Shown: positions 2,877 through 43,973 of the stretch, in pieces
Layout: each line of letters begins with the position of its first letter
Position numbering within the stretch: the first letter of the stretch is position 1
IMG/VR virus record: IMGVR_UViG_3300009149_000024
Coordinates: 1-64,000 of that record
DNA: 64,000 nucleotides
Strand: one strand, 5' to 3'
Origin: a virus
Position numbers and translations under genes: made by a program
The notes under the pieces: model-generated
The model's database searches: none
What the model was told of the DNA's origin: nothing
The model's input: only the letters and a program-made list of their open reading frames with translations

Positions 2877-2922
2877 AAAAAATTTTATAACTGAACTTTC
2901 TTGTTTGGTTATAAAATTTTTT
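2877..2922 (+). terminator. Rho-independent terminator, 15-bp perfect stem
   Basis: AAAAAATTTTATAAC (2877-2891) pairs perfectly with GTTATAAAATTTTTT (2908-2922) around a 16-base loop. The T-run at the 3' end and A-run at the 5' end allow action on both strands. It separates the small tail genes from the unit starting at 2981. Confidence 0.65.
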
Positions 2923-2941
2923 GTATATTATAATTGTATAG
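2919..2941 (+). promoter_or_regulatory. Candidate phage promoter motif, copy 1
   Basis: TTTTGTATATTATAA, one base (T), then TGTATAG. The same 23-base word with one change occurs at 47288-47310. Both lie in AT-rich gaps just upstream of a plus-strand cluster (here the gene at 2981). It overlaps the 3' arm of the terminator. A shorter form, TTTGTATATTA, is at 16644-16654. Promoter function is inferred from repetition and position. Confidence 0.45.
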
Positions 2942-2970
2942 ATTATAGTAAACTATTAGATTATAGTAAA
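2940..2970 (+). repeat. Tandem 13-base direct repeat upstream of 2981
   Basis: AGATTATAGTAAA occurs at 2940-2952 and again at 2958-2970, 18 bases start to start, directly before the ATG at 2981. The layout suits a regulatory site or part of the leader; function unknown. Confidence 0.5.
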
Positions 2971-2980
2971 AAAAATATTT

Positions 2981-8486: not shown

Positions 8487-9430
8487 TGGGAGTATCACAT
8501 AAATATAGAACATTCACTCAACTATATGAAGATGTTGCAGTTGACTTTGCATCTTATTCATTGGAAGGAATGATTGAACCACAACAATTAATTAAAGTTG
8601 CTACTAAAATTAATTATGAATTAGGTTTAAAAATACATAGAACTAAAGAAACAATAATTGATGTTGAACACGGTAGAGCTCAATTACCTAGAGATTTTGC
8701 ATATATTAATTATGCATTTCTTTGTGGTGAATATCATATCAATGCAACAATGCCTTCCGGTACACATGTTGAAACATTCAATGATGTACCTTATGTACCA
8801 GCACCTGGAGAAGTTGCTGCATGTAGTACGGGAGAAGGATGTGCTGATGTATGTGTTGTTAAGACATGTGAAGATAAAAATAGTTATCAGTTAGTTCAAA
8901 GAATTTCACCAAATCAATATAGAACTTATAGTACTTGGACAGAATTAAAAATTCAAGACATAAATCAAAAGAGTTGTTTTTGTCCTGACCTTGCTGCACA
9001 AGCACCTGATATTGCGCAAATAGTTGATGGATTTTTAATGACTAACTTTACTAGTGGTAGAGTTTATATAAGTTATCAAGGAGCTATGGAATCTCCTGAT
9101 GGAGACTTATTAGTTCTTGATCAACCTCTTTGTAATGAATATTATGAGTATGCCTTAAAACAAAGAATACTTGAAAATATGATATGGCAAGGAGAACAGG
9201 TTGCACCTCAATTACAATTAATTGAGACACGTTTAAGACCAGCAAGAAATAATGCATTATCATTTGTAAATACACCTGATTTTGCTGAGATGCAAAAAGT
9301 TTTTGTAATGAACAGAAGAGCTCAATATCATAATTATTATAATATGTTTAAAAGCTATGCTCCTTATAATCCAAGACTTCATACAGGAATCAATACATCA
9401 AGTAGTATAAATAATCCTACTTACCAATAA
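8486..9430 (+). CDS. Putative connector ring / tail tubular protein
   Basis: 314 residues. The helical N-terminus (RTFTQLYEDVAVDFASYSLEG...QQLIKVATKINYELGLKI) is followed by a beta-rich middle with several Cys and a helical C-terminal third (EYYEYALKQRILENMIWQGEQ). It overlaps the preceding gene by one base and precedes the muzzle gene by 14 bases. In crAss-like phages the gene before the P22 gp10-like protein encodes a tail-tube or ring protein comparable to P22 gp4. The assignment rests on order and fold impression, not a motif. Confidence 0.6.
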   Translation: MGVSHKYRTFTQLYEDVAVDFASYSLEGMIEPQQLIKVATKINYELGLKIHRTKETIIDVEHGRAQLPRDFAYINYAFLCGEYHINATMPSGTHVETFNDVPYVPAPGEVAACSTGEGCADVCVVKTCEDKNSYQLVQRISPNQYRTYSTWTELKIQDINQKSCFCPDLAAQAPDIAQIVDGFLMTNFTSGRVYISYQGAMESPDGDLLVLDQPLCNEYYEYALKQRILENMIWQGEQVAPQLQLIETRLRPARNNALSFVNTPDFAEMQKVFVMNRRAQYHNYYNMFKSYAPYNPRLHTGINTSSSINNPTYQ

Positions 9431-9444
9431 AGAATTAAATTACT

Positions 9445-24701: not shown

Positions 24702-27700
24702 ATGGAAAATCAAGTTAAAAATAATAGTTTAGAGCAAACAATTTTAGATAATCAAACATCAGAAAGTGTCATTCCAAAAGATAATTCATTTGAATCTGTA
24801 AGGGAAATGTTTAATACTCCCGCTACTGAGATTCTTATGGGTAAAATGGATATGTCTCAATTTGAACAAGTAGAGTCATTAAGACCTATGATTAATTTGA
24901 CAGGTATTAGATCAAATGCTAATGCTAATACAATAAGACCTACATTATCTACAAATACATTTGATCCTGTTCTACAACAAAATCCACCAAATTTACAAGA
25001 ACCAGGTGGATTTCACAGAATGATGACACAAAGTGTAAAAGATGCTTTTCAAAGAAGTGAAGCAGATGCAGTACCAGGAAGAGGTGTTGCATCCCCTGTT
25101 TTTTCAAGTATGCTTCAAACTAATTTTAAACGTTATTATGAGCATCCTGAATTTCAAACTTTAGGGTGGAAACCTTATGCTGATAATGAAGCTTACTATA
25201 ATGCTAACTCAACTATCTATGATGATATGAGTAGAATGTGGGGTCAATTTGGAAGCCTGGTTGGTACAGGATTTATGAGTGGTTATAGATCAATAGGTGA
25301 TATGATTGGTGGAGGATCCATGGTAACTGATTTAAAATCTGCAAATGAATTTGAAGATGCAATGGCAATTGGTAATTCAAGTAGAGGTGGTGTTTTAGGT
25401 TTTACTAATAACCTTTTACTAAACTCTGCATATACAGTTGGTATTGTTAGTTCAATTGCATTAGAAGAACTTGTAATGGCCGGATTAGAAGTTGTAACTT
25501 TTGGTGGAGCTACACCACTTGTAGCTGGAAGAACTGCACTTAATGCTGCAAGATTAGCTCAAGCTGTTGGTAAAGCAACTACTGTTGGTAGAATGTACAG
25601 TTCAGGAAGAACTATGATGAATACTTTAAAAGGTATTGACACAGCAAAAGATTTTTGGACAGCTAGTAAAATGGGAGGTAAAGCTGTTGCTAGTATTTTT
25701 GCTCCTGAAACTATAGCTGCTATTAATAGATTGCATACTACTGAAGTACTTGCTCAGAACTTAACTAATATGGCTAAAGCATCTGAATATGCTGGTTCAT
25801 TTTATAGAGATCTTAGAGGATTAAATTTAGCTTTATCAGAAAGCAAGCTTGAAGGAGGTATGGTTTACAATGATATGGTTAAAACAGGAATGGCCATTAA
25901 GTTTGCTGAAAATAATGGACTACCAGTTACTCCAGAACAAGCAGCAGAAATTGGCGCAAATGCACACAAAGCGGCATTTGCAACTACAATGCATAATATG
26001 CCTGCTATATTTTTAACAAACAAATTAGTTTTAGGTAATTCATTAGGTGGTTTTAATAAATCATTAGGTAGGGTATTTAGTGAAAATTCAGTAAACATAC
26101 CAAGTAGACTTATTAAAACTGCAGGTAAATTAAATCCGTTTAAAGATGCTGGTACAGGATTTAAAGGTTTGATGACAACAATTGGTAACGCAGGTGTTAA
26201 AGGTAATTTAGCAAAAGCAGGTACAGGGTCATTAAGATTTTTTGCTGCTAACTTAGGGGAAGGTATTCAAGAAGTTACACAGGAAGCTATTTCTGCAGGT
26301 ACTAAAAATTATTATACAACTCTATTAAAGGATCCACTAGCTGGTGGTACAGAATTATATAAAGCATCTGTTACTGCAGGATTAGGTGAGCAATTTTCAG
26401 CTCAAGGTTTTGAAACATTTATGTCAGGATTTTTAATGGGTGGTGTAGTATCTGGCCCACAAAAATTATTTTTCCAAGGAGTTCCTGCATTATATCAAAG
26501 AGTTTCTAATCCAGAAAAATATGCAGAGTATAAACAACAAAAAGAAACTTATATTAAATCTGTAGTAGATACATATAATGCAGTTTGGAATGCGCAAGCT
26601 AATGATCCAAATTCAATATTTGATCAAAAAAGATTTAACTTTTTAATACAGAAAGCAATATCTGAAGAAAAAACAATTTCTGCTATTCTTAATGATAAAT
26701 TTAATTTTGTTGATGAGACAGATGCTGCTAAGTTTCAACAAATACATACTGTACTATCAACAGGTGGTGCTTATTTATTTAAAGATCAGTTAACTGATTA
26801 TATGAAAATGTCTGATCAAGATTTAGCTGAGGCTTTTCCTTCAAGCAAATCAGAGATTAAAAATGGAAAGATAAGAGAGCGTCTTCAAAGTATGGTTAAT
26901 CAAATTGATAAAACTGAAGATGTATATGAAAAATCAAAAGATCAATATCCAAATCCATTTAATCCTAAATCTTTTGAAAAAGGTACAAGAGAATGGGAAC
27001 AAGAAACATTAAATAATCTTGCTTGGGAACATGCAAGATATCTTTATATGTTTACCCAAGATGGTTTTACTAGAGCACTAGAAAGATCAAATAGTATTTA
27101 TCAAAATCTAACATCAGATCCATTGTTTGAAAACATGGCTGCTAATGATTTAACTGTATTATTAGATCCTGCTTCTATTGATAAAGAAATGCAAATGTTA
27201 ACAGAAGAAGCTTTGCTTTTATCTGGAGATACAAAACTTAATGCTGATAAAATAAAAGAAAAAACAGAAAGAATAGAAAGACTGTCTGCATTTAAAAATA
27301 TAGTAATGGAGAACCAAAACAAAGATGGTTCTTTTGATAAAAGAAAAATTAGTTTACTTAGAAAAGAATTTGAAAAGTATGTTAAACATATGGCTCAAGC
27401 AACTGGCTCATTTGTAAACAAAGAAGCTATTGATAATGCATTAAAACAAATTGTAGATTATACTGCATTAAAAGGTAGAGCTAAGGTTTATGATAAAGCA
27501 ATTGAGTATTTAAACAACCCTCAAAAATTTAGAGATTTATCTGAAAGATCTGCTGAAGCAATGCAGGAACAATTTAAAAATAGAAAAGCAATATTTGAAA
27601 AACAAGTACGTGATTATACTGATGTAATTGAAAGAAATGAATTAGCTAATCAAATTGCAAAATTAGGATATATACCTAACCATGTTGAAATGAAAATGTT

Positions 27701-30700
27701 TTTAGAAACTGGAGACAGTAAATATTTAAAAACATTTTATAATCAAAAAGGAGAAGACATTACCAGATATGATTCAGAAGGTTTAGCTAATATCCAAGAA
27801 TTATTAAATACTTATGAGCAAACTAGACCTGATAAAAAAGTAGAGGCAGAAATTAAAGAAGAGGAAGAGGTTGCTGAAGAAGGAAGAGCTGATGTAGATG
27901 ATATATTAGTGTCAGCTGGAATAACTACTCAAGTATCAGTTAAAAATTCAGTTCTTCTAGACAATGCCGTTAAAAAAGCTTATGATAAATATTCAGCTAA
28001 AGAAACAAGAGCTGGTAAAAAACCAATGTCTTTAGAAGCATGGATTGGTGGAGATGGTGGTAAAAATCTTAGAGCATCATTCATTGCAGTTAAAAGAATC
28101 TGGGTAGAAAATGATTTACTTATAAACCCAAACAACCCACTTACAGAACAAGAAATTGAAAGTGAAAGTAAGTTATTGTCATGGTTACAAAGCCAAGAAG
28201 GTAAAACAAATGATTTAGTTGAGTCAGTAGTAAATGCTGTTGGATTAACTATTGAAGATATTACAGGTCAAGTTGAATTATTGCCAGCACAAGGTGAAAG
28301 CATTGAAGGAAATAAAAGTGCTACTGTTGCTGAAAAAGGAAATGTTATTTCATTAATTGAATTGAATACAGTTGATCCAGAAGGCAATGCTTTTACATCA
28401 TATCAATTGGTTGATCAATATAAACAACCGTTAGATGAAGAAACATTAACCAGATATGGTATTCCTACATTAGGAATATATGATGAAGCTAATAAAGCTG
28501 AAGGTATTAAAATGCAAAAAGCTTTAAATGATTTAATACCTGATAGCACTAAATTTACTTTTGCTGGTGCAACTTTAAATTATGGACAACTTATTTATGA
28601 TAAGACAGGTCTAGAATTTATTATATTAAGTGACCCTAAACAAATTAAAAAAGATGGTAAATTATTAATAATTCCATCTAATGAAATTAGTCCAATAATT
28701 AAAGATACTGAAAGATCTACTCAACCTATTACAGCTAAAGAATTTGCTGAGTTATTTAGTGTTCAGGATTTAAATGTTAAACTGTTACCTAATAATGTAG
28801 CTAGATTAAGCATCAATGAACCTATTCAACCATATCCTTATAGAAATAAAGTTGAAGGTAGTACAAATGATTGGACAGAAACTAATGAACAAGCAATAGC
28901 AAGATATAATTTAATTATGTCAGTGCTAACACCAGAAGAAGTAAATGATTTAGAATTAGTTGTAAGTTTAGATCCTGAAGGCGGAACAGAAGGTCCTCTT
29001 TTATTTATTCCTGGTAGTAAAGAAGCAAATCCATACATTCAAACAGTAAGAGCAAAGTATTCTGTAGGAATAAGAATTGCTAATCCTGCAGTTCAATCTA
29101 AAGTTGATGCTATTGTAGAAAAAATGGGATTAACTAAAAGTACTTCTACAAATGGTGTTTTTGCATTTATGCAAAATAATAACTTTATAATTACAAATTC
29201 TCAAGGTACTGTTATTGATCCAGTCAATATGACAATGGATGAATACAAAAACATAATCTACCTTCCAGAAGGAATGGTTAAAAATCCTGAAACAGATTTA
29301 AAGCGTGCTCAAGATCACTTTGCTTTAAATAATGTATTGAGTGCAGCATTACCTGGTTTAGTAGCTAAGTATCCAAATGGTATTATACCAATGAGTGAAT
29401 TACCTAATGGTTTATCTTTTGTATATAAAGAAGCTGTAATGATGTATGATAAATCACCAAAGTCATTGACTGATTTACAATTTAATGCTGCTGATATAAA
29501 TGGTAACTATTTAATTTATCAATCAGAAATAGTTAGAGATGAAGAAGGTAAGCCTGTCAAACCTTTTCAAAGAACTAAAATAGCTATATCAAACCTTGAA
29601 GGTCAAGCAAGAAGACAACTTATAAATGAAGTTGAAGCAAACTTAAGTGAACAAGATTTAGCAAAACTTATTAGCGGTCAAGATGCATATAATGCAATTG
29701 TATTAATGCCTGATGGCAAATATAAAGTGGTTAACTTAAAAGCTAAATCTATTGATAAAGCAATTTTAATGGAAAAGTTTACAGCAATAATTAATAAAGC
29801 TGAATCAACATTAATTGAAAATCCAGAAAAATCTGATTCTTTTAAGACAAACTTTAATTCTGATTACAATGAAAACTTACCTAAAGAAATATTTGTTAGT
29901 ACAAAAAACGGCTATAAAATTTCTCTTCAAGTTAGTCCTTGGGGTAAAATAGAATTAGATTTATTTGATACTGTCAATAAGAAAAAATTAGGTATTGCAA
30001 GATTAAAGCCAACTGCAAAGACATCTGTTGATGAACAACTTAAAACTTTGTTAGATGATTTTAATGCATTACCTGGAGCTATAGCTGTAGGAATAAAGAT
30101 TACTCCTGAAAACTTTAGAGAAAGTTTTCCAAGAGATATATCTGCTAATGATTTAATTGAAAAAACAACAACTGAGGTTGCACCTAAAGTTGCATCTAAT
30201 AGTAAGATTGAATTGTCTGGAGATTCTGCATTTATTCAAGCTGCTAGAAATATACCAGTATCAACACAAGGTACTTTTACACCAACAGAAACATTTACAG
30301 ATGCTCAAGGAAATCCAATTCCTAAAGGTCCTGAATTAACAACAGCTGCAACACCTGAAGAGGTGGCAGACGCACTTGATACAGATAACATTAATCCTGA
30401 AGACATCAATGTAGATGATATTGCTGCACGTAGAAATGGTGTTAGATTAAATAAACTAGAAGGTGTTAAAGAACAACTAGATACTTTAAAAGCAAAACTT
30501 ACTGAAGGATTAGTTGGTGCAGCAAAAATTAAAGCTGTAAAAGAAAGCAAAGAATATCAAGATCTTTTAGCTGAAAGAAAAAAATTAGAAAGTGAAGCTA
30601 ACAAAATAGTTTCTGTTCAAGATGCTGTTGTTGATGCTGAAGATATTGATGTATTTACAGAATGGGCAACTGCAAGTCTTCCTGAGTTTATATCAATAGA

Positions 30701-33700
30701 AGATATTGAGACTTTAGGTAATAATCTTAAAGCTGGGGGAGTGCGTGTTGGTGCATTTGTATTAGGTCTTAATAATATAGGTGGAGGATTAACTGTTAAT
30801 GGAACATTATTTACAGGAGCCAAATCTCCATTTAAATATCATGAAGCATTTCATGGTGTATTTAGAATGTTATTAACTGATGCAGAAATTAAAAAATACT
30901 TAACTATTGCTAGAAAAGAAGTAAGAGCTAAGTTAAGAGCAGAAGGTAAAAGCTTTGAGGCTGAATTGCAAAGATTCAAAAACTCAGCTGATACTTATTC
31001 TGACATGAGCCGTGAAAGATTAGAACAAGAATACTATGAAGAATATTTAGCTGATGAATTTGAGAAATTTAAAACAAATGCAAAGTCAACTCAAACGGAT
31101 TCTGCTGTTAAGTCTTTATTCACTAGAATTATGGAGTGGATTAAATCTGTATTCCAGTCCTTTACTAAGAATCAATTACTTACTTTATATGAAAACATTG
31201 ATGCGGGTAAATTCAAAACAGCATCAATAAGTTCAAATCAATTTGTCAATAGTTTGATGACCGGTATATCATTAGAAGCTAATGCATTAATACCATATGA
31301 TACTGAACAGAATGCCAACAATAAAGTTGGATACTATTTCTTAGATAGTGTTATTGCTGAACCTTTGGTTTCAGGTATAGCTGCTATGTATATACAAGAA
31401 ATTGCAAAAGTAAAAGATCCTAATGTAAAACGTGGAGATATACTTGATAATGTTATAAATGATTTTGCTGCTTTATATGATGAAGATAATGAATCAAATC
31501 AAAATCTTTCAGATGAACAGAAAAAATTCTTACCTCAAATAACTGAAGTATTTTATAATTTTTCTGATGAGTTAAAAAGTGAAGTATTTAAAGTTTTAAA
31601 TATTATAACTAAACAAACTGAAGAAGAAGAATATAACAATGAATACTTTGAAGAACAAGTTGGTCTAAGAAATACAGAACAGTACAACATGGATGCGTCT
31701 ATGATTGGTGGTTTTGGTTCTTTGTCTGAAGGTTTAAGAAGTTACTTGGCTACAACAACAATAGCAGAGACTGATTACTTTGGTAATAAAGAATTAAAAC
31801 CTGGGGTAAAATTAATTGTTCCTATAAATTTTGTATCTGCTTATAATGGGTTATTAAAAGCTGTTAAGAATATTGATGACCCTAAAAAGATGTTACAGAA
31901 CATGTACTTCTTTGGATTAGATAATCCTCAGACTGGTGCCGTTGTAACAAGATTACTACAAGACTTTGGTTTATCTGTAGAAACATTATTAGAGTCAGGA
32001 CCATTACCTACTAAGATTAAAAATGCTGCTTTATTCCAATCTGTTGTAAAAGGTTTTACAACATTTAGAGTAGATTATTTATTTGTACAAAGAGATAATG
32101 CTGGTTCAGTATTAATTTATTCTGCAGCCCAAAGAGATGATATTAATTCACAATTAGAATCATGGTCTCAAGCTTGGGGTCAAGCTGAAAAGAAAATCAA
32201 AGCAGATCCAAAAGTTAAAAAAGAAACTCTTGATACATTAGAAGATTTTGCAAGTTATTTAAAACCTAGTGATGCTCAAATTACTGATTCAAAATTAGCT
32301 GAGTTATCTTCTAAATATTCTCAGGATATTTTTAAACTTACAGGTATTAAATTAAGCAAGCAATTTATTAGCTTTAGTATTGCATCAGCAAGAAATAATC
32401 CCACAACAATGCAGGCTGCATTAATAAATGCTAATTCTGAACAAACACCTATAAGTTATAGTGACATTCTTGAAATAAATAAATTAATTCAACAAGGTAA
32501 TGATATCTTTAGTGAAGGAGCATTGGGAGCTAATTCAAGAATTAGAACTTTAGCAATTCAAAATGCACCATTTGATGAAACAATTGGGGCATCTGTATTT
32601 AAAAATCCTGAAGGTAATTTAGTATATGCACATCAATTACCTACATTCCATTTAAAAAGAATACAAGAGTTAAATGATGTGGCAGAATTAGAACGTCTTA
32701 AAGAATCTGATCCATATTTAGCAGATAACTTCCTTTTAAATAGTGAAGCCTTTTTACAAATGTCTGCAGAAAATAGACAAAAAGTTTTAAGAATAGCTGG
32801 AAGTAGTGTTGGTAAAATAAACAATACAGAAGAAGAACTTAATGATAAAATTTCTGGAGTATCTAATAAAGCATCTTATGGTAACTATACACCACAAGAA
32901 TTTACATTAAGTATACTTAATACATATATAGCTTTACTAAATACTAAAAGTAATAAAGTTGAGTATGTAGAATATTTTGATAATAAACTTAATAAAACTG
33001 TTAAGTCTGCATTAGCCCCGGTATTAATGAGAGTATTAGAAGCATCTAATACAGGAGACTTAATGTATTTACCTGTAATTAAAGCTGTTAAGTTTGAAAA
33101 AGCAGGTGGTGGTAAAGTTGTTTTAACTAATGAAACTGTAAACATTTTTGTTGATAATATCAAGAATGAATACAATAGAATTGTAAGAGAATCAAACTCT
33201 GAGACTAGAACTGAAGATACTCAACTTGGATACAATACTGAAAATGGTAGAGCATTTAAGTTAACAAACACTGGTTTATTTGTTACTCCAGATTTAAAGG
33301 CTTCATTAGAAGCTATTGCTAGCCGTGAAAATGCTCCTTCATTTGAAGAAGCTTTAAAAGAATTAAAGATTAGTGATACTAAATTTAGATCAGCAGTAAA
33401 TCAACAATTAGAAAGTCAGTATGATATATTCTCTAAAAGTTTAAATAATTTACAAATAGAAGATCAATTAAGTAAAAGTATAACAGAAGGATTAGCAGTT
33501 GATAAAAAAGGAGATAAAAATCTTATTGAATCAGCTGAACTACTTAATCTTACTTATGATAAAGAATATAACCTAAAACAAATATTTTTTAATGACTGGG
33601 TTAATACACTCTCTATAAATGAAGTTCTTTTAGGTGATCAGGCTGTAACATTAAAAGATGGAGTTGATGCCGTTAAAAGAGCTAAGATGCAGAATGCGGC

Positions 33701-36700
33701 ATACTATAGTGCTTATAGTTCTATAATGGCTGAAGATATGGGTGTAATGCATACTGTTGATGATATTAGTTTAGTTGCTTTAGAAGAACCAGTAGGAGTT
33801 TCTGCATTAACAGGAAAAAATATTGATAGATCAGATGCTCAAATGTGGATGACTACAAAAGCATTTAGATACATGTGGTTTGGATTTGGTAAACTTAATC
33901 CTGCTCAAGCAAAACTTATTGATAAAATTGAAGCTGGTGAAAAAATAACTTCTGAAGAATTGTTTGGTCAAGATGGTTATGTTGATATGGGTAGTATGCT
34001 TAACTCTAAAAAGTTAGTGTATGGTGATGGTAAAACATTTATTAAAATGTCTGCCTTTGTATTGACACCTGAACTTACATCTAATAAAGTAGTAGATGAG
34101 AATGGTAATGTAACTTGGGTTGCTAAAGAAACTAGATCTGAATTACATGATTTAAGAATGAAGCTTGAAGGCATTGAAGCTTTACCTGGAAAACAAACTT
34201 TAGGTATAGCGGCACCATTAAGTGCATTGAAAATGCTTAAGCAAAAAGTGCAAACATTAAATAGAGTTGGTGAAGATAAAGCATTTGAAGAGGGTGATTA
34301 TACTACATTGTCTGCAAAATATATGGGTCTTCAAGTATTAACACCTTCAAATAAGACAGAAGTTATTGATGCAACTCAAATAAAGAATATTGTTACTTCA
34401 GAACAAAAAGATGATGTTTTTGTAGAAGCTTTGGGAATGACCGTTGGTCAAATTAGAGCTGCATATAATCTTGCTACCTCAGCTAGAGTAGAATTAAAGT
34501 TTAAAAATAAAAGAAACTTAATTTTTAGTTTTGATAAGGGAATGCAAGAGCTTGCAATCTCTAGAGAGAATAATAAATTAACTCCTAACTTAACAGCATT
34601 CTTAAGATATGCCACTGAAGGTCTTAAAGCATCTCAAGCAAGTAGTAACTTGTTAGAGTTCTTTTCAACTCAAGATGGAGAACAAAAATATGATTTAAAT
34701 AATCCTATTACTTTAAATAAATTTGAACAGTTGTTCTTGAGTTATTTAAGTAAAGGAACACTTGCTGAAAAAGCACCCGGTCATGCTGTAGCTTTAGTAT
34801 CTGATTTTGGTACTAAAGTTTATAGAAGAGTATTTAGTGTTGATGAAAATGGTGTTCCTGATAGATCAGAAATCATTAGAGAAAATGTTTGGAATAGTTT
34901 AGCTAACAAACCTGCACTAGGTGAGTATGATACTTTATCTGTTACAGTTAAAGACAACAAAGAGGGTGTAGTTATACTTGACCGTTTAAGATCTGGTGTA
35001 AAAGAATATGATAAAGATGGTAAGTTTACAGGTGAAAGATATACTGAAATGCTTATGCCGGCACACTTTAAATCTGTTATGGATTTAATTGAAAATTCTA
35101 ATGGTAAGTTTCCAGATGTATTATCTAAAATGTTTGGTGTACGTATCCCATCTCAAGATAATCACTCAACAATTAACATTAAACATGTTGACTTCTTACC
35201 AGCATTCTATGGTTCATCTGCAATGTTTGCACAAGAACTTATTGAGATATCAGGAGCGGATTTTGATATTGATAAAGTTTATATGCAAATCAAAGAGTTC
35301 TATGAAGAAGGTGGACAGTTCTATGAGTATGGTAAACAAACTACAGATCAAGGTAAGTACACAGACTATTTAAAGTATGTATCTGAAAAAGTTAAAGTAT
35401 CAGGTACTACTTATGCTGAAGCATTAGAATTATACAAAAATGATAATCAAGGTGCAAGTATAGAAAATTCTGTTACAGATATAGAAGAAGAAATAGCTTC
35501 TGATGCAGGTTTGTCTGAAGATGGTATTAAAGCTTTGCAAATTTTAGGATTACCTATTACAAAAGAACAATATTTAGAATACAAGAAAAAGTTCCGTGAG
35601 CCATATGAAGCTCCAATGAATAATGCAATACTAGATTATAAGTATGCCTTAATGGGTAATACTGGTGTAACAGAAACAACAATTGAAAATGAAACACCAA
35701 TTTCATATACAGCTGCTAGTTTAAAGATCTTAACTGATTTATTAAAGGAATTTGTAGGTGAAGGTGAAGTGCAAGGTTTATTACCCGGCCTAAGTGAACG
35801 CTCAAGAGAAGACAATATTGACATCAATAATATGATTGGTAAGATAAAAGCATTTACTAATAATAAAGGTGCTGCTATTGGAGCCATTGTATTACCAAAC
35901 GTATACTTAAGTTTACTAACTGAGTATGGTATTAAAATAAATTCTAATGGTCCACAAATTAGTATTAATGGTGTTCTTTATAATGACTTTACAACAACTA
36001 GAGAAAAAATATCTAAAACAGAAACCGGACTTAGAAAGCAAGATATTATCTCAGCATTGATTACAATGGCTACAGATAATGCTAAAGAACGTCTTGTTGC
36101 TAAACTTGGTTTAAATAAACATGCTCTTGGTGTAGTAGCTAACTTAACTGCTTTAGGTGTACCTATTAAAACATCTTTATTGTTGATTAATAATCCAATG
36201 ATACAGGATTTATATTCTCAAGCATTAAACAAAAAAGATAAATTAGATCCTGGAGTTTCTGCTTTAGTAGACAAGATGATAATTGAGTTACTAGAAAAAA
36301 CAAAAGCTATTAAAAAAGATGATCTAGAGAAGTCATTATCAGACATGGGTGTAGATTTTGCAACCTATGATGAAGTTAATGATGCTCTTTTAATAGATGC
36401 ATTCAATAATGCAGAAGAGGTTACTGATAAAGAAAAAATTGCAATATTAAATTTATTTTCAGATGCTGTAAAAGTTAAAGACTTTACAAGTAATATGTCA
36501 GCTATTGCAGGTTTAACAAATGGATTAGGTAAAGATATCTCAGCAGTCAATGAAAAAGCTGAACAAATAGATAAGCTGTTTGATGAAAAAGCAATGATGG
36601 ATTTAAAGCCAGTATACAAAAGCAATACTTGGCAATCAAAATATCTTGACATATTTAATCAAATCAGAAATGAGTTATTACCTGTTACATTTTTAACAGC

Positions 36701-38192
36701 AAGTGAAAACTTTCAATCAATTTTGAGTGAAGTATATGAAAATGTAAATTCTAATTCAAATGATTTTAATGAAGAAGTAAGATCTAAAATATCAAAAGAT
36801 TTATTATCATACTTAACTATTAAAGCATATCAAGAAAACAAATTAAAAAATGATCCACAGTCAGCGGCTACTTTAAGTAATGAGTTGATCTATCCTGGAG
36901 GTGATTATTTATCAATCAATGATATTGTTGATAGATTACGTACTACAGAAGCTGGTCAAAATAATTTCTTCTTAGATAACTTTGCAATAAATGTTAAAGC
37001 AAGTGATGCTAAAAATCAAACAGGTTTGAATACAGTTGATGCAAATACTTTTAGAAGTTTGAATGCTGGTCAAAAAGTAGATTTACAAAATTCATTTGCT
37101 AAACTATATGGCTCATTAGAAACTAAGAATGATGCTTTATCTATAATTAACTATATCATGGTTAAAGATGGATTACAATTAGGGTATGCTTCTTTATTAG
37201 AAGCAATCAGCCCTTTTGTAATGGATGCATATCTAAGTCAAATTGAAACAGCAAATGCTGCATTAAGAAGTAATAATGAAGTAAAAGTCAAAGAAACTTT
37301 TGGTCTGAATACAGATGAATTAAAATCTGATTTTGTCAATAATTATTTGTTATCAAATATAAATGGACCTTTGTTATATACATTTAATAAAAACTTCCCA
37401 GCTAAAGGAATTACTATTAAAAAAGAAGACATTACAAATGAAGTTAAAGTTGATTGGAATCAAATTAATGGTGGTACACCTACGCGTTTTATTAGATTAA
37501 AAAGCACAGATGTATTAGGTAACATGTCTTATGAAACATTTATTTCTACATCAGATCCTGAATTAACAACACAAGTTTATAATAGAGTAGAAACAAAAGG
37601 CTCTAATCAACAAAATCCAATTGGGTTTATGTTTGGAGAAAGACCTACGTATAAAGCTGTAAGACAAAGCATTAAACTTAAAAATTCAAAAACAAGTCAA
37701 GATGCATATGCTGATAATGTTCAATTTGAGGTACCTGAAAATTTTGCAATATCATCTGATGAAATGATTCAATTAGGTGCTTTGAATGATGAGAATGCTG
37801 ATATTGAAGCAACTGAATTTGGTGTTAATATTAACGGTAACAACATTGCTAACATTAGTGCAATGGAAGCATTGCTTACAACTGAACCAAAAGAAAAAGC
37901 AGAAAAGGTTGAGTCAGATATTACTGAAATTGGTGAAGCAACAACACTACTTGACTCAATGAGTGATCTTGAAAGAGAGTTGTATGACGAGATGAATGCT
38001 GAAATAGAAAGTGATTATTCAGCAATTGAGAATTTCTGGGATGCTAACATTCAAAAAAACACTCAAGCTAAAGAAAATTTGAGAGTAAATAATAATGTTC
38101 TATCTTTGGAAGATCTTATAGATATGTACAACAATGGTATATACACAAGTCAAGAAGAATTTATTGAACAAATAAAACAATGTAATCTATAA
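24702..38192 (+). CDS. Giant virion RNA polymerase protein with zincin-like domain
   Basis: 4496 residues in one uninterrupted frame. Residues about 228-285 hold long hydrophobic stretches (NSAYTVGIVSSIALEELVMAG) that could insert in a membrane. A zincin signature lies at H2047-E-A-F-H2051, with a downstream E2113-E-Y-L-A-D-E that could supply the third ligand. The RNA polymerase active site is D3520-F-D3522-I-D3524, preceded by VRIPSQDNHS and HVDFLPAFYGSS; this matches the catalytic double-psi barrel of crAss-like virion polymerases, which are related to eukaryotic RNA-silencing polymerases. The polymerase is expected to be packaged, ejected, and to transcribe phage genes early. At twice the length of characterised single-domain relatives, it combines ejection-type, protease-like and polymerase parts and may be processed. 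Confidence 0.85.
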   Translation: MENQVKNNSLEQTILDNQTSESVIPKDNSFESVREMFNTPATEILMGKMDMSQFEQVESLRPMINLTGIRSNANANTIRPTLSTNTFDPVLQQNPPNLQEPGGFHRMMTQSVKDAFQRSEADAVPGRGVASPVFSSMLQTNFKRYYEHPEFQTLGWKPYADNEAYYNANSTIYDDMSRMWGQFGSLVGTGFMSGYRSIGDMIGGGSMVTDLKSANEFEDAMAIGNSSRGGVLGFTNNLLLNSAYTVGIVSSIALEELVMAGLEVVTFGGATPLVAGRTALNAARLAQAVGKATTVGRMYSSGRTMMNTLKGIDTAKDFWTASKMGGKAVASIFAPETIAAINRLHTTEVLAQNLTNMAKASEYAGSFYRDLRGLNLALSESKLEGGMVYNDMVKTGMAIKFAENNGLPVTPEQAAEIGANAHKAAFATTMHNMPAIFLTNKLVLGNSLGGFNKSLGRVFSENSVNIPSRLIKTAGKLNPFKDAGTGFKGLMTTIGNAGVKGNLAKAGTGSLRFFAANLGEGIQEVTQEAISAGTKNYYTTLLKDPLAGGTELYKASVTAGLGEQFSAQGFETFMSGFLMGGVVSGPQKLFFQGVPALYQRVSNPEKYAEYKQQKETYIKSVVDTYNAVWNAQANDPNSIFDQKRFNFLIQKAISEEKTISAILNDKFNFVDETDAAKFQQIHTVLSTGGAYLFKDQLTDYMKMSDQDLAEAFPSSKSEIKNGKIRERLQSMVNQIDKTEDVYEKSKDQYPNPFNPKSFEKGTREWEQETLNNLAWEHARYLYMFTQDGFTRALERSNSIYQNLTSDPLFENMAANDLTVLLDPASIDKEMQMLTEEALLLSGDTKLNADKIKEKTERIERLSAFKNIVMENQNKDGSFDKRKISLLRKEFEKYVKHMAQATGSFVNKEAIDNALKQIVDYTALKGRAKVYDKAIEYLNNPQKFRDLSERSAEAMQEQFKNRKAIFEKQVRDYTDVIERNELANQIAKLGYIPNHVEMKMFLETGDSKYLKTFYNQKGEDITRYDSEGLANIQELLNTYEQTRPDKKVEAEIKEEEEVAEEGRADVDDILVSAGITTQVSVKNSVLLDNAVKKAYDKYSAKETRAGKKPMSLEAWIGGDGGKNLRASFIAVKRIWVENDLLINPNNPLTEQEIESESKLLSWLQSQEGKTNDLVESVVNAVGLTIEDITGQVELLPAQGESIEGNKSATVAEKGNVISLIELNTVDPEGNAFTSYQLVDQYKQPLDEETLTRYGIPTLGIYDEANKAEGIKMQKALNDLIPDSTKFTFAGATLNYGQLIYDKTGLEFIILSDPKQIKKDGKLLIIPSNEISPIIKDTERSTQPITAKEFAELFSVQDLNVKLLPNNVARLSINEPIQPYPYRNKVEGSTNDWTETNEQAIARYNLIMSVLTPEEVNDLELVVSLDPEGGTEGPLLFIPGSKEANPYIQTVRAKYSVGIRIANPAVQSKVDAIVEKMGLTKSTSTNGVFAFMQNNNFIITNSQGTVIDPVNMTMDEYKNIIYLPEGMVKNPETDLKRAQDHFALNNVLSAALPGLVAKYPNGIIPMSELPNGLSFVYKEAVMMYDKSPKSLTDLQFNAADINGNYLIYQSEIVRDEEGKPVKPFQRTKIAISNLEGQARRQLINEVEANLSEQDLAKLISGQDAYNAIVLMPDGKYKVVNLKAKSIDKAILMEKFTAIINKAESTLIENPEKSDSFKTNFNSDYNENLPKEIFVSTKNGYKISLQVSPWGKIELDLFDTVNKKKLGIARLKPTAKTSVDEQLKTLLDDFNALPGAIAVGIKITPENFRESFPRDISANDLIEKTTTEVAPKVASNSKIELSGDSAFIQAARNIPVSTQGTFTPTETFTDAQGNPIPKGPELTTAATPEEVADALDTDNINPEDINVDDIAARRNGVRLNKLEGVKEQLDTLKAKLTEGLVGAAKIKAVKESKEYQDLLAERKKLESEANKIVSVQDAVVDAEDIDVFTEWATASLPEFISIEDIETLGNNLKAGGVRVGAFVLGLNNIGGGLTVNGTLFTGAKSPFKYHEAFHGVFRMLLTDAEIKKYLTIARKEVRAKLRAEGKSFEAELQRFKNSADTYSDMSRERLEQEYYEEYLADEFEKFKTNAKSTQTDSAVKSLFTRIMEWIKSVFQSFTKNQLLTLYENIDAGKFKTASISSNQFVNSLMTGISLEANALIPYDTEQNANNKVGYYFLDSVIAEPLVSGIAAMYIQEIAKVKDPNVKRGDILDNVINDFAALYDEDNESNQNLSDEQKKFLPQITEVFYNFSDELKSEVFKVLNIITKQTEEEEYNNEYFEEQVGLRNTEQYNMDASMIGGFGSLSEGLRSYLATTTIAETDYFGNKELKPGVKLIVPINFVSAYNGLLKAVKNIDDPKKMLQNMYFFGLDNPQTGAVVTRLLQDFGLSVETLLESGPLPTKIKNAALFQSVVKGFTTFRVDYLFVQRDNAGSVLIYSAAQRDDINSQLESWSQAWGQAEKKIKADPKVKKETLDTLEDFASYLKPSDAQITDSKLAELSSKYSQDIFKLTGIKLSKQFISFSIASARNNPTTMQAALINANSEQTPISYSDILEINKLIQQGNDIFSEGALGANSRIRTLAIQNAPFDETIGASVFKNPEGNLVYAHQLPTFHLKRIQELNDVAELERLKESDPYLADNFLLNSEAFLQMSAENRQKVLRIAGSSVGKINNTEEELNDKISGVSNKASYGNYTPQEFTLSILNTYIALLNTKSNKVEYVEYFDNKLNKTVKSALAPVLMRVLEASNTGDLMYLPVIKAVKFEKAGGGKVVLTNETVNIFVDNIKNEYNRIVRESNSETRTEDTQLGYNTENGRAFKLTNTGLFVTPDLKASLEAIASRENAPSFEEALKELKISDTKFRSAVNQQLESQYDIFSKSLNNLQIEDQLSKSITEGLAVDKKGDKNLIESAELLNLTYDKEYNLKQIFFNDWVNTLSINEVLLGDQAVTLKDGVDAVKRAKMQNAAYYSAYSSIMAEDMGVMHTVDDISLVALEEPVGVSALTGKNIDRSDAQMWMTTKAFRYMWFGFGKLNPAQAKLIDKIEAGEKITSEELFGQDGYVDMGSMLNSKKLVYGDGKTFIKMSAFVLTPELTSNKVVDENGNVTWVAKETRSELHDLRMKLEGIEALPGKQTLGIAAPLSALKMLKQKVQTLNRVGEDKAFEEGDYTTLSAKYMGLQVLTPSNKTEVIDATQIKNIVTSEQKDDVFVEALGMTVGQIRAAYNLATSARVELKFKNKRNLIFSFDKGMQELAISRENNKLTPNLTAFLRYATEGLKASQASSNLLEFFSTQDGEQKYDLNNPITLNKFEQLFLSYLSKGTLAEKAPGHAVALVSDFGTKVYRRVFSVDENGVPDRSEIIRENVWNSLANKPALGEYDTLSVTVKDNKEGVVILDRLRSGVKEYDKDGKFTGERYTEMLMPAHFKSVMDLIENSNGKFPDVLSKMFGVRIPSQDNHSTINIKHVDFLPAFYGSSAMFAQELIEISGADFDIDKVYMQIKEFYEEGGQFYEYGKQTTDQGKYTDYLKYVSEKVKVSGTTYAEALELYKNDNQGASIENSVTDIEEEIASDAGLSEDGIKALQILGLPITKEQYLEYKKKFREPYEAPMNNAILDYKYALMGNTGVTETTIENETPISYTAASLKILTDLLKEFVGEGEVQGLLPGLSERSREDNIDINNMIGKIKAFTNNKGAAIGAIVLPNVYLSLLTEYGIKINSNGPQISINGVLYNDFTTTREKISKTETGLRKQDIISALITMATDNAKERLVAKLGLNKHALGVVANLTALGVPIKTSLLLINNPMIQDLYSQALNKKDKLDPGVSALVDKMIIELLEKTKAIKKDDLEKSLSDMGVDFATYDEVNDALLIDAFNNAEEVTDKEKIAILNLFSDAVKVKDFTSNMSAIAGLTNGLGKDISAVNEKAEQIDKLFDEKAMMDLKPVYKSNTWQSKYLDIFNQIRNELLPVTFLTASENFQSILSEVYENVNSNSNDFNEEVRSKISKDLLSYLTIKAYQENKLKNDPQSAATLSNELIYPGGDYLSINDIVDRLRTTEAGQNNFFLDNFAINVKASDAKNQTGLNTVDANTFRSLNAGQKVDLQNSFAKLYGSLETKNDALSIINYIMVKDGLQLGYASLLEAISPFVMDAYLSQIETANAALRSNNEVKVKETFGLNTDELKSDFVNNYLLSNINGPLLYTFNKNFPAKGITIKKEDITNEVKVDWNQINGGTPTRFIRLKSTDVLGNMSYETFISTSDPELTTQVYNRVETKGSNQQNPIGFMFGERPTYKAVRQSIKLKNSKTSQDAYADNVQFEVPENFAISSDEMIQLGALNDENADIEATEFGVNINGNNIANISAMEALLTTEPKEKAEKVESDITEIGEATTLLDSMSDLERELYDEMNAEIESDYSAIENFWDANIQKNTQAKENLRVNNNVLSLEDLIDMYNNGIYTSQEEFIEQIKQCNL

Positions 38193-38198
38193 TAAGCT

Positions 38199-41100
38199 AT
38201 GGCAAGATGTCCTAATAAAAACGCACCGGAATATAAAGCTTTACAAGAAGTTTATAAAAGTGAAATTGCAACAAACAATATCATTAATACTTGGCAGGAT
38301 GCAAATAATACAGATGTATTTCCAACTGTAGTTGAAGCAAAACAGTTTGCTAAAAACAACAAGGTTGCTTTTGCATTAAAGCAAAAAACTTTTGCTGAGA
38401 GTTTATTAAATAACTTAAGGGAGAAAAAACTTATTCATACTGAATTTGGTTTAAATCTTATTAATGCTTCAGATCCAAATGTTTTTTATACAGAAAGGGT
38501 TGCTGATCCGGTAGTTGTTGAAGATAACAAAAGAAAAATAGAGCAATATCTAAAGACTAATAATATCCCTTTAGATGCTGTTTCTATTATAAAGACTAAC
38601 AAAACATATAAGGTTATAGTAGATCAAAATGTTTTTACCCCAAAAGATTTGTTACCATCATCTAGAGCTTGGGATACGCCAAGATCCAGAGCTGTTGTAA
38701 TGCATTTGATGAGAATGTTCCCGGATGTCAAAGTCAAGATGCTTAGTCCTACTGAAGCAGAAGCTATTTATAATACAATACCTAAATGGCAGAAGAGTAA
38801 AGTCAACTTTAAAAATGTAAATTCATTTTACTTTAACAATGTTGCTTACTTAGTAAGAGGAAGAGTTACAGATGAAACTGCAATTGAAGAGATGCTACAT
38901 CCATTTACTGATGCTATCAAAATAGATAACCCTCAGTTATTTAATAGTTTACTTACAGAAGCTAAAGCAAATTTTCCTGAAATGGTACAGTCTATTAATG
39001 AGGCCTACAATGGGAATAGAAACTTCAGCCAGGTAGAAAGAGATCTTGAAATAGTAACTCAAGCATTATCTAGACATTTCAATAATGAATATGAGTCAAC
39101 TCCAACTAAAAAATTCTTAGATAAAATCAAGGAAGCTTTAGACTGGTTTTTAAATGTTATTAATAACTTAAATGAGTACATAACAGGTAAGCCTTTATCT
39201 GTAAAATCTATTAACAACAAAACTACTTTTACTGATATTGCTAAACTTTTAAATACAGAAGGTATAAGTTTCAATCTGGGTAGTAGTTCAAATGGAAAAG
39301 TAAGATATTCATTATCTCCTGCAAAACAAAAGATTGTAAACAAAGCACTAGAAGAAGCTAATCCTATTCAAGCAGAGATAATTAAAAAATTATTTCATGT
39401 TGCTATTAATTCTAAACAAGAGATAGATTCTTTATCTGCAAATTTAAGTGACACAACTTCAGCTAATACAATTGTAGTTCTTAATCAAGAAGATCATACT
39501 TATGTTGATATTACAAACCGTGAAATTTACAAATCAGTAACTACAGCAATTAAAGGTCAACTTGCAAATCAAGAAGATGTAGAACTTAATTTGGCTGTGG
39601 GCAATGATGTAGATGGGTTATTGGATTCCATAATATCTAATGAATCATTTGATGAAGCATTTCTTAAGATGAAATCTATAAATAGAGAAACTGCAGAAAA
39701 AATGTTTGATTTATTACAAGATCAAATTACCCAATTAAAACCATTAAATTCAATTGCTATTTCACAAGTTGTTGTATATGATGAAGCAACAAAGCTTGCA
39801 GGTACAGCAGATTTAGTTATTATAGATGAGTATGGTAGAATAAGAATTGTTGATTTAAAAACAAGTAAAAATTCTATTTATGATATGTCTACTGTAGCTT
39901 CTATTAAAAATAAAATACCCGGTAGAAAATCAGGTACTAGATATGAAGTAGTAGAGTATGAATTAAAAGAAGATGTTCCTGCACTAGATAAAAATGGTAA
40001 ACCTATTTTAAATCCAGATGGTTCACCTAAAGTATTTCTTGGTAGTGACCTTAAAAAAATTCACGGGGTTGATGCATTATCAACTAGAGCTCAACATAAC
40101 TTACAAGTAAATCTTTATAGACGTATGTTTCAAAACATGGGTTATAATGTTTATGAAGGTGATGCTGGTGCTGTTACTTTTCACATACAAGCAGACATAA
40201 CGGGTAAAGGTAAAAATCAAGTATTCAATAATAAGTTTAGATTAGACGGTAGAGTTGAACATCCCATATCACAAAATTTGCTTTATGTTGATATGCTTGT
40301 TCCTTCTATAGAAGTGCTTGATAAAAATATTAACATAGCAGAAAATGCTATATACCGTGGTGATCAAGATTTGGAAGCTATGGAACAACTGGCTGATACA
40401 GTAGAAGCTCAACAATATTCAGAGTACAATACTATTACAACAGCATTAGAAAACTACATTCTTGCTTTAGTAGAGCAAAACAAAGCTTTAGACAAACTTA
40501 AAAACAATGTATTTAGGGATAGAACTAAAGAGCAAACTAGAGATGATATTGCAAGTACATTAGCATACATCAGTAGTAATATTAATACTGGACCAATAGC
40601 TAGATCTCAGACATATACTCAATTACTAAGAAGCTCTTTAAATCAAATGCAAAAATTTAGAGAGTTTGTTGAAGATCCAGCTAATGTAAATAAGCCTGAG
40701 TACATTACATATGTTTTAAACTTCCAAAGATTCTTAAGTACATTTGATGCTTTATATTCAATCAAAGATTCTAAGGAGCTTAATGCTACACAAAGAACCT
40801 TGGTTCTTCAAATGCAACTTGAACATAATAAACTTGTTGGAACTAATAATAGTGAAGGTTTAATCAATGATGCTATTTTAAATTTTGTAAAAGAAACTAT
40901 CAGACTTAGATCAAGTAATGATTGGGGTGGAAAAGGTAGTGCATTTACACAAGAAATGTTGGATGACCTTATGGTTATGGCTCCGGATATTGCAATAGAT
41001 GCATTACAAGCTCAAGATATGGCTACTCAAAAAGATCCTATACTTGCTGTAATGGATAAGATATATAAAAGCCAAAAACAAAAACTTTTAGACAGAATAG

Positions 41101-43973
41101 AGGAAAGAGAATATTCAATTAGAAATGCAGGTAATACTTTATTAAAACTTTCAGGAAACAAAGATCTGCAAAAGCTTTATGACTTCATGCTAGAGTATGA
41201 TCAAGATGGTCAATTTACCGGTTTTTATACTCAAAAAATTGGTATACAATATACAAATATTCAAGAAGGATTAAGAAGTAAACTTTATGATAATGCAGGT
41301 CAACCTTATGAATATAGAGATGTTACTGATTTAAGTAAAGCAAAGCCGGAAGATATTCAATTTAACATAGAGTTAGCTAAAAATAAAGCTACCTTTGGTA
41401 AATTCTTTCAAGCTGAAACTGTAGCTGAAGATGGTACTATAACTAGCGGTGAGTTTCATAAATATACTCAAGAATTTATTGATGTTAGAAATAAATTTGA
41501 AACACCAAAAATATCTAACAACAAACAATATATTACATGGGTAAGAAAAGCTGGTATTTCAGAAAGAGATTGGAGTATTTATCAAAATAAATACTATGAT
41601 TTTAGTGATTATACAAAAGCAATTAAAGTTAATGGTGAGCCAACAGGTGCTATAACAAAAAAGGTGGCAGCTGCATTTCCAAAGGTTAAATTTAGAGAAG
41701 CCTTAGAAATAAGTAATCCTAAAGAAGGTCAACCTCAAGACATGCGTAGTGAAAAGTATAGAGCACTAATGGATCCTACTAAAACAGATGCATTAAGTGT
41801 TGCTCAAAAAGATTTTTACAACATGTTTATAAAATACTATGAGAAAGAACTATTAAATAAATTACCACAAGGAATTAGAAATCAAATGACAGGCCGTGTT
41901 CCTGTTGTTAAAAATAATATTTTAGATACATTAAAAGATCAACCAAATGTTGTAACTAAAATGTATGCTAATTTTGTTAGATCTGTTAAGAATTTTACTC
42001 AAGAAACAGCAACTCAAAAGAATGTTGCCTTTGATGAGAATGGTAATTTTGTCAATGCTCTTCCTGTTTATTATACAGGTAAGTTAAGAGTTGATGATGA
42101 ACTTAAAGAAGTTGAAACACAGATAACAGCATTACAAGATAAAAGCAGAAAGGGTACAATTACTCCAGATGCATATAAAAGAGAGTTGGCTTTACTTAAT
42201 GGTAAAGCTAAACAACTTAGAAGTCAACCATCATTAGGTGAACTTAATAAAGATATGACTAATGCTTTACTTAAGTTTAGTGCAATGGCTGAACATTATG
42301 AAGTAATGGGTGAGATTGAAGATACACTTACAGCTATGGTGGATGTTATTAAAAAAAGAAAATATACATCTGCTGATCCGGCAATAAGTTTAGGTACTAC
42401 TGTTGACAGTAAGTTTAAAACGGCAGGAACAATTAAAGGTGTTGATTCAAATGCCCTAAGAAGAGCTAAAAAGTATATGTCAATGATTTATTATGACAAT
42501 GAACTTGTATCTAAAGGGATGTTTGATAAGTTAGCTGATGAACTTATTGGTGTTTCTTCATTAGCTTATGTAGCATTTAACCCATTTGGTAACTTTAATA
42601 ACTATGTTATGGGTAGAATCAATAATGGTATTGAAGTTTTAGGTAGCAGATACTTTCCTAAAAAAGATTATGTAAGAGCAACAAGAGAGTATAATACAGA
42701 AGGTGTTAAAGGATTGTTAGATAGAGTTTCTGCCGGTGCAACTGATTTAGCTGATATAGCTACTTTAGGAAAAACAGGTTTAAAGAAAGCTGACTATAAT
42801 TCTGATTTACCTAATAATAAATATGAAGCTTTAGTAGACTTTTTTAGAATGATGGATAAAGCTACAGACATACGTGAAAGTACTTCTGAGTTTGATAGCA
42901 AATCAATATGGTCAAGATTTAAAGAGTGGGGTTATGTAATGCAAGATGCTGCTGAATATAATGTTCAAACTAAAGTTGGTATAGCAATGGTCATGGCTAA
43001 TACAATTAAAAATAGCACAACTGGTGAAACATTATCTCTTTATGATGCATTTGAATATAATGCAACAACACATAAAGTAGAATTAATAGAAGGTTATGAT
43101 ACTATTGTAAATAAAAATGGAACAGAACAACCATATACCGATCAGTTTAGATATGATTTAAGAAATGAAATTAGAGAAGTAAATAAGCAAATTCATGGTA
43201 ACTATGCTAAAGAAGACAGAATGGTTTTACAAAATAACACTCTGGGTAATTTAGCAACACAATTTCATAAATGGGTGGCACCTGCAATTAGAGCTAGATT
43301 TAGAAGAGAATACTTTGATCAAAATTTAGGTTGGATGGAAGGCCGCTATAGAGCTTGGTGGAAATTCATGGGTCATGTTAAACGTGAAATGGTACGTGGT
43401 AATGTTAGTATAAATCCTGCTAACTATGCAGAAAGCTTTAAAGAAGCTTATGGCTTTACAGGTGAAGGTGGTAACTTAGATCAAAAAGCTGAAGATAAAA
43501 TGAGAGGTTTTTATAGAACAACTGGAGAACTAGGTATTATGCTAAGTGTTGTTGTATTAAATTCATTGATGGCCGGTTTACTTGCTAATGATGATGATGA
43601 CAGTGAATTACAAAAAAGACTGAAAAATGTAATAAGACTTCAGGGAGACAGAACATACAAAGAAATGGTGTTGTTTACAATGGTGTTACCACAGAGTCAA
43701 CAACAATTATATGCAATGATGAAATCTCCAATTGCAACTACCAGAACTCTGGGTGAATTAGGTGAAGCATTAGAGTTAAGTGTTCAAACACCTTTGGCTT
43801 GGCTTTATCAAAGTGAAGCAGACTTTAAAAATAATTCAGATTATGTATATCAAAATAAACCAAATAAAGGAAAACTAAAGGTTTATAAAAATTGGGTAGA
43901 TGTAATACCTCTTTTAAGAACCATACAGAAATGGGAAAACATGCTTAAAGCACAAGACTTCTACATTAAGTAA
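38199..43973 (+). CDS. Large polymerase-companion protein with RecB/Cas4-type PD-(D/E)XK nuclease motif
   Basis: 1924 residues, starting 6 bases after the giant polymerase gene. Residues about 520-645 contain the nuclease core: LAGTAD538LVIID, IVD552LK554TSKN, and Q636VNLY640, matching motifs II-IV of the RecB/Cas4 branch. Near the N-terminus is E230-E-M-L-H234-P-F followed by KFLDKIKEALDWFLNVI, which resembles the layout after the zincin motif in the upstream protein but lacks HExxH, so it may be a degenerate zincin. The C-terminal third is helical and basic with one hydrophobic segment (LGIMLSVVVLNSLMAGLLA). It is probably packaged and ejected with the polymerase. The nuclease could attack host DNA or process phage DNA; neither is proven. 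Confidence 0.7.
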   Translation: MARCPNKNAPEYKALQEVYKSEIATNNIINTWQDANNTDVFPTVVEAKQFAKNNKVAFALKQKTFAESLLNNLREKKLIHTEFGLNLINASDPNVFYTERVADPVVVEDNKRKIEQYLKTNNIPLDAVSIIKTNKTYKVIVDQNVFTPKDLLPSSRAWDTPRSRAVVMHLMRMFPDVKVKMLSPTEAEAIYNTIPKWQKSKVNFKNVNSFYFNNVAYLVRGRVTDETAIEEMLHPFTDAIKIDNPQLFNSLLTEAKANFPEMVQSINEAYNGNRNFSQVERDLEIVTQALSRHFNNEYESTPTKKFLDKIKEALDWFLNVINNLNEYITGKPLSVKSINNKTTFTDIAKLLNTEGISFNLGSSSNGKVRYSLSPAKQKIVNKALEEANPIQAEIIKKLFHVAINSKQEIDSLSANLSDTTSANTIVVLNQEDHTYVDITNREIYKSVTTAIKGQLANQEDVELNLAVGNDVDGLLDSIISNESFDEAFLKMKSINRETAEKMFDLLQDQITQLKPLNSIAISQVVVYDEATKLAGTADLVIIDEYGRIRIVDLKTSKNSIYDMSTVASIKNKIPGRKSGTRYEVVEYELKEDVPALDKNGKPILNPDGSPKVFLGSDLKKIHGVDALSTRAQHNLQVNLYRRMFQNMGYNVYEGDAGAVTFHIQADITGKGKNQVFNNKFRLDGRVEHPISQNLLYVDMLVPSIEVLDKNINIAENAIYRGDQDLEAMEQLADTVEAQQYSEYNTITTALENYILALVEQNKALDKLKNNVFRDRTKEQTRDDIASTLAYISSNINTGPIARSQTYTQLLRSSLNQMQKFREFVEDPANVNKPEYITYVLNFQRFLSTFDALYSIKDSKELNATQRTLVLQMQLEHNKLVGTNNSEGLINDAILNFVKETIRLRSSNDWGGKGSAFTQEMLDDLMVMAPDIAIDALQAQDMATQKDPILAVMDKIYKSQKQKLLDRIEEREYSIRNAGNTLLKLSGNKDLQKLYDFMLEYDQDGQFTGFYTQKIGIQYTNIQEGLRSKLYDNAGQPYEYRDVTDLSKAKPEDIQFNIELAKNKATFGKFFQAETVAEDGTITSGEFHKYTQEFIDVRNKFETPKISNNKQYITWVRKAGISERDWSIYQNKYYDFSDYTKAIKVNGEPTGAITKKVAAAFPKVKFREALEISNPKEGQPQDMRSEKYRALMDPTKTDALSVAQKDFYNMFIKYYEKELLNKLPQGIRNQMTGRVPVVKNNILDTLKDQPNVVTKMYANFVRSVKNFTQETATQKNVAFDENGNFVNALPVYYTGKLRVDDELKEVETQITALQDKSRKGTITPDAYKRELALLNGKAKQLRSQPSLGELNKDMTNALLKFSAMAEHYEVMGEIEDTLTAMVDVIKKRKYTSADPAISLGTTVDSKFKTAGTIKGVDSNALRRAKKYMSMIYYDNELVSKGMFDKLADELIGVSSLAYVAFNPFGNFNNYVMGRINNGIEVLGSRYFPKKDYVRATREYNTEGVKGLLDRVSAGATDLADIATLGKTGLKKADYNSDLPNNKYEALVDFFRMMDKATDIRESTSEFDSKSIWSRFKEWGYVMQDAAEYNVQTKVGIAMVMANTIKNSTTGETLSLYDAFEYNATTHKVELIEGYDTIVNKNGTEQPYTDQFRYDLRNEIREVNKQIHGNYAKEDRMVLQNNTLGNLATQFHKWVAPAIRARFRREYFDQNLGWMEGRYRAWWKFMGHVKREMVRGNVSINPANYAESFKEAYGFTGEGGNLDQKAEDKMRGFYRTTGELGIMLSVVVLNSLMAGLLANDDDDSELQKRLKNVIRLQGDRTYKEMVLFTMVLPQSQQQLYAMMKSPIATTRTLGELGEALELSVQTPLAWLYQSEADFKNNSDYVYQNKPNKGKLKVYKNWVDVIPLLRTIQKWENMLKAQDFYIK

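Follow-up and report, generated by a model that had tools for sequence, protein, structure and literature searches.

A 4496-residue chain in a crassvirus relative: a probable virion RNA polymerase fused to a gp47-like half and a zincin-like module

A single gene of 13.5 kb joins several protein regions in one chain. The gene (24702..38192, forward strand, as are all features within it) lies in the window, the whole 64,000-nt stretch analysed here, which comprises bases 1-64000 of a virus record spanning 71,774 bp. It starts with ATG and runs through 4496 codons in a single frame without an internal stop, giving a predicted chain of 500 kDa. The original prediction had read this chain as a fusion of ejection-type, zincin-like and RNA polymerase (RNAP) regions, and the three motifs that it named, HEAFH (2047-2051), EEYLADE (2113-2119) and DFDID (3520-3524), were all at the positions given. 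When the protein was shuffled 2000 times, at least one HExxH appeared in 0.8% of the shuffles, D[FYW]DxD in 7%, and both together in none (0). The whole chain had no significant match in Pfam or PHROGs, and its first 2766 residues had no tblastn match in phage records. The best overall explanation, in which we have good confidence, is a virion RNAP that carries a gp47-like half and a zincin in the same chain.

A long reading frame could also arise artefactually, if assembly or annotation had joined two genes. Relatives with split genes do exist, and the giant ORF showed a frame break in two loci (L041 and L058). However, the ORF was uninterrupted in dozens of contigs obtained independently from many metagenomes and also in Suoliviridae genomes, and we give the artefact practically no credence. 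Nine IMG/VR contigs have close homologues, with identities of 76-88%, and at these identities the gene is full length in one ORF in independent contigs. Scanning with an RNAP alignment that spans the crassviruses gave at least 458 stretches that encode relatives, and 80 of these were retrieved. In nearly all loci reaching far enough, the zinc and RNAP motifs shared one ORF of ~4300-5000 residues, and the distance between the two motifs across the family was mostly 1460-1860 residues.

The polymerase reading was upheld by both fold and sequence profiles. The AlphaFold2 model of residues 2700-3850 (32799..36251), the RNAP core, had a mean pLDDT of 82.5 and a pTM of 0.78. Its best Foldseek match among solved structures was 6VR4_A, the packaged RNAP of Cellulophaga phage phi14:2 (E 1.3e-28, probability 1.00), with a TM-score of 0.63 by query length over 1241 columns. 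The next-best matches were QDE-1 RNAi polymerases, of which crassviral RNAPs have been reported to be kin (PMC7886860). Profile comparison of the region reached the crAssphage gp44 group at 99.5%, the crAss001 gp50 group at 98.4% and phi14:2 g66 at 89-95%, the 95% match being around the catalytic loop, with further matches before and after it. This Mg-binding loop, DFDID (35259..35273), was conserved across alignments A2 and A5 as well as the 64-row alignment, its residues being invariant or nearly so across 64 diverse homologues, and it sits in a conserved GxDFDxD context. In a tblastn search of 50,697 phage records with the last 1896 residues, crassviruses were the only phage matches (E down to 1e-9). 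No RNAP was matched when the sequence, or even a 43-row profile, was compared with solved structures, so that 6VR4 was reached only by fold. It is close to certain that residues ~2200-4496 are an RNAP of the phi14:2 gp66 type. An N4-like polymerase, that is, the T7-type single-subunit enzyme, was ruled out by the fold, which is that of the phi14:2 enzyme.

The zincin-like module covers residues ~1980-2195 (30639..31286), as delimited by profile matches and a block of conservation, and is preceded by a linker of variable length (residues 1855-1925, 30264..30476) where insertions and gaps peak. The module profile matched the C-terminal region of Steigviridae gp47 at 98.4% (E 1e-14) and cr118_1 at 96.5%. 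Within HEAFH (30840..30854), H2047 and H2051 are the predicted zinc ligands and E2048 the predicted general base, while E2113 or E2114 of EEYLADE (31038..31058) is the likely third ligand. All five residues were present in 64 of the 64 homologues covering the site in the family alignment, where identity ranges from 29 to 90%. Residues 2001-2250 held 22 near-invariant positions, a density equal to that of the RNAP core; that such positions are lacking before 1750 is due in part to truncated contigs and was not counted as evidence.

The fold of the module gave a less complete picture. The HExxH helix and the Glu helix were well modelled, with E2113 and E2114 in the following helix, and the sheet region upstream of the motif helices was largely below 50 pLDDT. 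Foldseek against the PDB gave no significant match for this model. Among predicted viral proteins the best matches were crAss-like giant proteins, mainly of Suoliviridae, which supports kinship rather than the zincin fold. Among solved structures, the closest by sequence was the Pro-Pro endopeptidase 6fpc, at a non-significant E of 0.21; Pro-Pro endopeptidase is a zincin. Nothing was found for the region in Pfam, and a literature search on crassviral zincins found no paper in the collection searched. The predicted zincin thus stood as to its invariant HExxH, its downstream Glu and its homology to the HEAFH end of gp47, whereas its fold was not confirmed. Judged from these sequence features, a zincin is the probable identity of the module. 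The invariance of the zinc ligands implies catalysis, and we therefore consider it highly likely that the module would be an active peptidase.

What lies on either side of the module had been described as having no known function, and this description did not hold throughout. The downstream flank is the RNAP part, and a stretch of the upstream flank, residues ~400-690 (25899..26771, limits approximate), resembles crassviral gp47-type proteins. In profile comparisons this stretch matched residues 312-571 of crAss001 gp47 (92%), residues 279-583 of the Leptolyngbya phage protein XAI97382 (93%) and residues 347-519 of the csAssE-Sib structural protein WOZ57301 (82%). The HEAFH of crAss001 gp47 lies 184 residues before its end. 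Because both the ~400-690 stretch and the HEAFH module match gp47-type proteins, we read the giant chain as a gp47-like protein to which a gp50/gp66-like RNAP is joined. The predicted joint falls at residues 2150-2210 (31149..31331), where split relatives have their gene boundary. It was placed from a low-confidence segment of the model (2150-2193), a drop in conservation at 2200 and the arithmetic of motif spacing. A cut at ~2195 would yield parts of 243 and 257 kDa, as compared with 262 and 277 kDa for the separate crAss001 proteins gp47 and gp50.

Hydrophobic segments had been predicted near residues 230-285. They were present, but weaker than implied: Kyte-Doolittle values in 19-residue windows exceeded 1.5 only at residues 246-275 (25437..25526), with a peak of 1.61. 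Most of the full-length homologues tested have the stretch in this position too, and cr118_1 and crAss001 gp47 have a similar N-terminal hydrophobic patch.

The fusion of gp47-like, zincin and RNAP parts is already present in known crassviruses and is not new. In cr118_1 of the Suoliviridae, gp_13828 (QOR58373.1, 4946 aa, annotated as 'DNA helicase') has the same order of parts in one chain. Its HEAFH is at 1734 and its DFDID at 3209, a spacing of 1475 against 1473 in the window, and the same third protein follows the giant gene. As aligned, the two chains are ~23% identical over the RNAP core and 32% identical over the zincin region; cr118_1 differs in its gut origin and in occupying a separate deep branch of the RNAP tree. 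In 26 phage records, a single location covered at least 80% of a 1600-residue query spanning both motifs. Both motifs lie within one open frame in cr10_1 and cr1_1, and cr109_1 and cr52_1 have stop codons in frame under table 11, which would fit an altered genetic code. The fused Suoliviridae genes bear names such as 'DNA helicase', 'nuclear pore complex protein-like' and 'DprA-like'.

In other families the parts are separate. In crAss001 (Steigviridae), gp47, which ends in HEAFH, and gp50, which has DFDVD, are homologous to the two halves of the window chain, but are two genes on opposite strands. Carjivirus communis (crAssphage) has KP06_gp45, annotated as 'RNAP associated protein fused to zincin protease', adjacent to gp44, its RNAP, on the same strand. 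These too are two genes, with HESLH in place of the HEAFH of the window, and gp44 is itself fused to another subunit. Rudgehvirus has the same gene order as crAssphage gp45/gp44. The module profile had no match above 20% among Intestiviridae gp45-type proteins, and the suggested kinship with them comes from gene order and annotation only. The RNAP-region fold and DFDID loop are common to the window and phi14:2 gp66 (6VR4), but there the RNAP stands alone, the upstream protein g67 lacks HExxH, and a HEIMH occurs in the third protein, g65. The N4 virion RNA polymerase, one of the polyvalent proteins (PMC5512222), is likewise a giant injected chain joining an RNA polymerase to a zincin-type peptidase domain. 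However, its polymerase is of the T7 single-subunit type and not a double-psi-barrel enzyme, and its zincin is C-terminal to the polymerase. Polyvalent proteins combine several enzymatic domains in one chain that is transmitted with the genome; the window chain joins an RNAP to a zincin-like module, and would presumably be passed on in this way.

In a quick RNAP tree the window lineage formed a single, well-supported branch that stood outside all named families. With the long branches of this tree, the fused and split states require at least two changes, and one or several origins of the fusion are compatible with it. The window gene is thus a new environmental lineage whose parts, and their joint, are known in crassviruses. 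Only one homologue, L036, lacks HEAFH. Its first ~1400 residues are 100% identical to L120; beyond this shared part, L036 continues into a window-type RNAP, and L120 has HEAMH and no RNAP motif. The sequences may reflect recent recombination or a chimeric assembly. Given the identity with L120, we did not rely on L036 as a natural loss of HEAFH.

The order of the neighbouring genes agrees with a place in the Crassvirales. A structural block (virion structural proteins at 7809-14886) comes before the giant transcription genes, in which the RNAP gene is followed by a third RNAP-associated protein of 1924 aa (38199..43973, forward strand), homologous to crAss001 gp49 and phi14:2 g65. Residues 473-564 of the third protein (39615-39890) are a PD-(D/E)XK nuclease (Pfam E 1.6e-6, PHROG exonuclease E 2.4e-10). 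A second zincin-like site, EEMLH at residues 230-234 (38886..38900, forward strand), has Glu in place of the first His, and EE[MIV][LM]H occurs throughout ~70 homologues and in cr118_1. In Leptolyngbya phage Lbo-JY46 the homologous site retains an intact HExxH, as HEFMH (profile match 96.8%). Since the window lineage has EExxH where phi14:2 and the Leptolyngbya phage have HExxH, loss of this His is tolerated in the third protein but not in the HEAFH module. A homologue of crassviral TerL occurs in 11 related contigs, with E values from 1e-17 to 1e-24, and the crAss001 MCP was matched by 3 of 12 records at E <1e-3. The window virus is most likely an uncultured environmental relative of the gut crAssphages (Crassvirales).

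The protein at 14886-16613, upstream of the RNAP gene, contains an SLT transglycosylase domain (Pfam E 1.8e-11). Lbo-JY46 (L016, PP438436.1 62354-87808) is recorded from a cyanobacterium, and its record bears no order name. Crassvirus-like stabilisation, gp47-like and third-subunit proteins are present in it, and the proteins read did not contain the usual RNAP catalytic motif.

The expectation that the chain is packaged cargo of the ejection type is well supported by homology: crAss001 gp47, gp49 and gp50 were found in virions (PMC10172136, PMC6235969). According to PMC7886860, which cites the phi14:2 study, the phi14:2 RNAP is ejected and transcribes early genes. Packaging of the window chain is argued from relatives only, because its own 71.8-kb record has no detectable terminase or capsid match. 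By analogy with these relatives, the giant chain would be packed in the capsid and ejected with the DNA, and early genes would then be transcribed. The zincin would act as a peptidase after packaging, during or after ejection. Its likeliest substrate would be its own chain near the joint at ~2195, which would free the 257-kDa RNAP from the 243-kDa gp47-like part.

Self-cutting has been proposed for the zincins in N4-like RNAPs, which according to the same study might cut such chains ahead of packaging, inside the head or once injected, or might instead attack proteins of the host (PMC5512222). The N4 virion RNAP is packaged uncut despite its zincin domain (PMC5512222). Gels of crAss001 virions showed bands at 150, 270 and >300 kDa (PMC6235969), the latter two being compatible with the size range of intact gp47 and gp50. 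Because the N4 RNAP is packaged uncut and the crAss001 bands are compatible with intact subunits, we favour action on or after ejection. Against self-processing, crAss001 encodes the two halves as separate genes, and since Steigviridae and Intestiviridae, whose RNAP has its own gene, retain the zincin, separating the halves cannot be its sole role. We therefore hold only tentatively, at somewhat less than even chances, that the zincin cuts its own chain. The fuller scheme is a little more doubtful: a 500-kDa polyprotein would be packed whole, pass through the tail unfolded and be cut near 2195 by its own zincin inside the host. If it is true, the cut releases the RNA polymerase and thereby sets the timing of early transcription.

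Two other roles compete with self-cutting. The zincin could be an effector that is injected to cleave a protein of the host, such as one of defence or transcription, with the RNAP chain only as its carrier. Such use is among the options in PMC5512222, and it would suit both the conservation of the zincin where zincin and RNAP are separate genes and the uptake of other cargo by the family, as with the DUF7831 carried by the L036 chain and an insertion with its own HEYAH in L069. However, the near-invariant surroundings of the motif across divergent lineages favour a housekeeping substrate over a diversifying host target, and there is no known host substrate, so that we think this role rather unlikely. 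Slightly less probable again is that the target is some other protein of the virion or of the ejected set, or that the module serves packaging, its own chain being left uncut. The zincin-holding region of N4 is required for encapsidation while the RNAP stays uncut (PMC5512222), and the crAss001 virion contains gp47 and the RNAP as two separate chains (PMC10172136). Yet a purely structural role leaves the invariant H, E, H and E ligands unexplained, whereas in the third protein the first His of the sister site has clearly been lost.

Between them, the fused and split relatives confine the predicted cut to a narrow region. Together with the invariant active site, this makes the role of zincins in packaged RNAPs directly testable on cultured crassviruses. 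The comparison also places a large environmental lineage, with hundreds of IMG/VR matches, firmly among the packaged crassvirus RNA polymerases, and it explains the misnamed Suoliviridae genes in public records.

Further variation was seen around the polymerase. Residues 2860-2900 (33279..33401) are the family's insertion hot spot, which in L069 (5159-9097) holds an insertion of ~1200 residues just before the RNAP core. Besides the HEYAH site, SLOG/DprA-like and macro-like motifs were seen in this insertion by eye, and Pfam had no match for it. The cultured Flavobacterium phage FPSV-S29 (L125, 11972-25231) encodes a 4419-aa chain annotated as 'structural', with RNAP matches at 2769-3265 (DYDID) and a HEVIH at 4197, after the RNAP and not before it.
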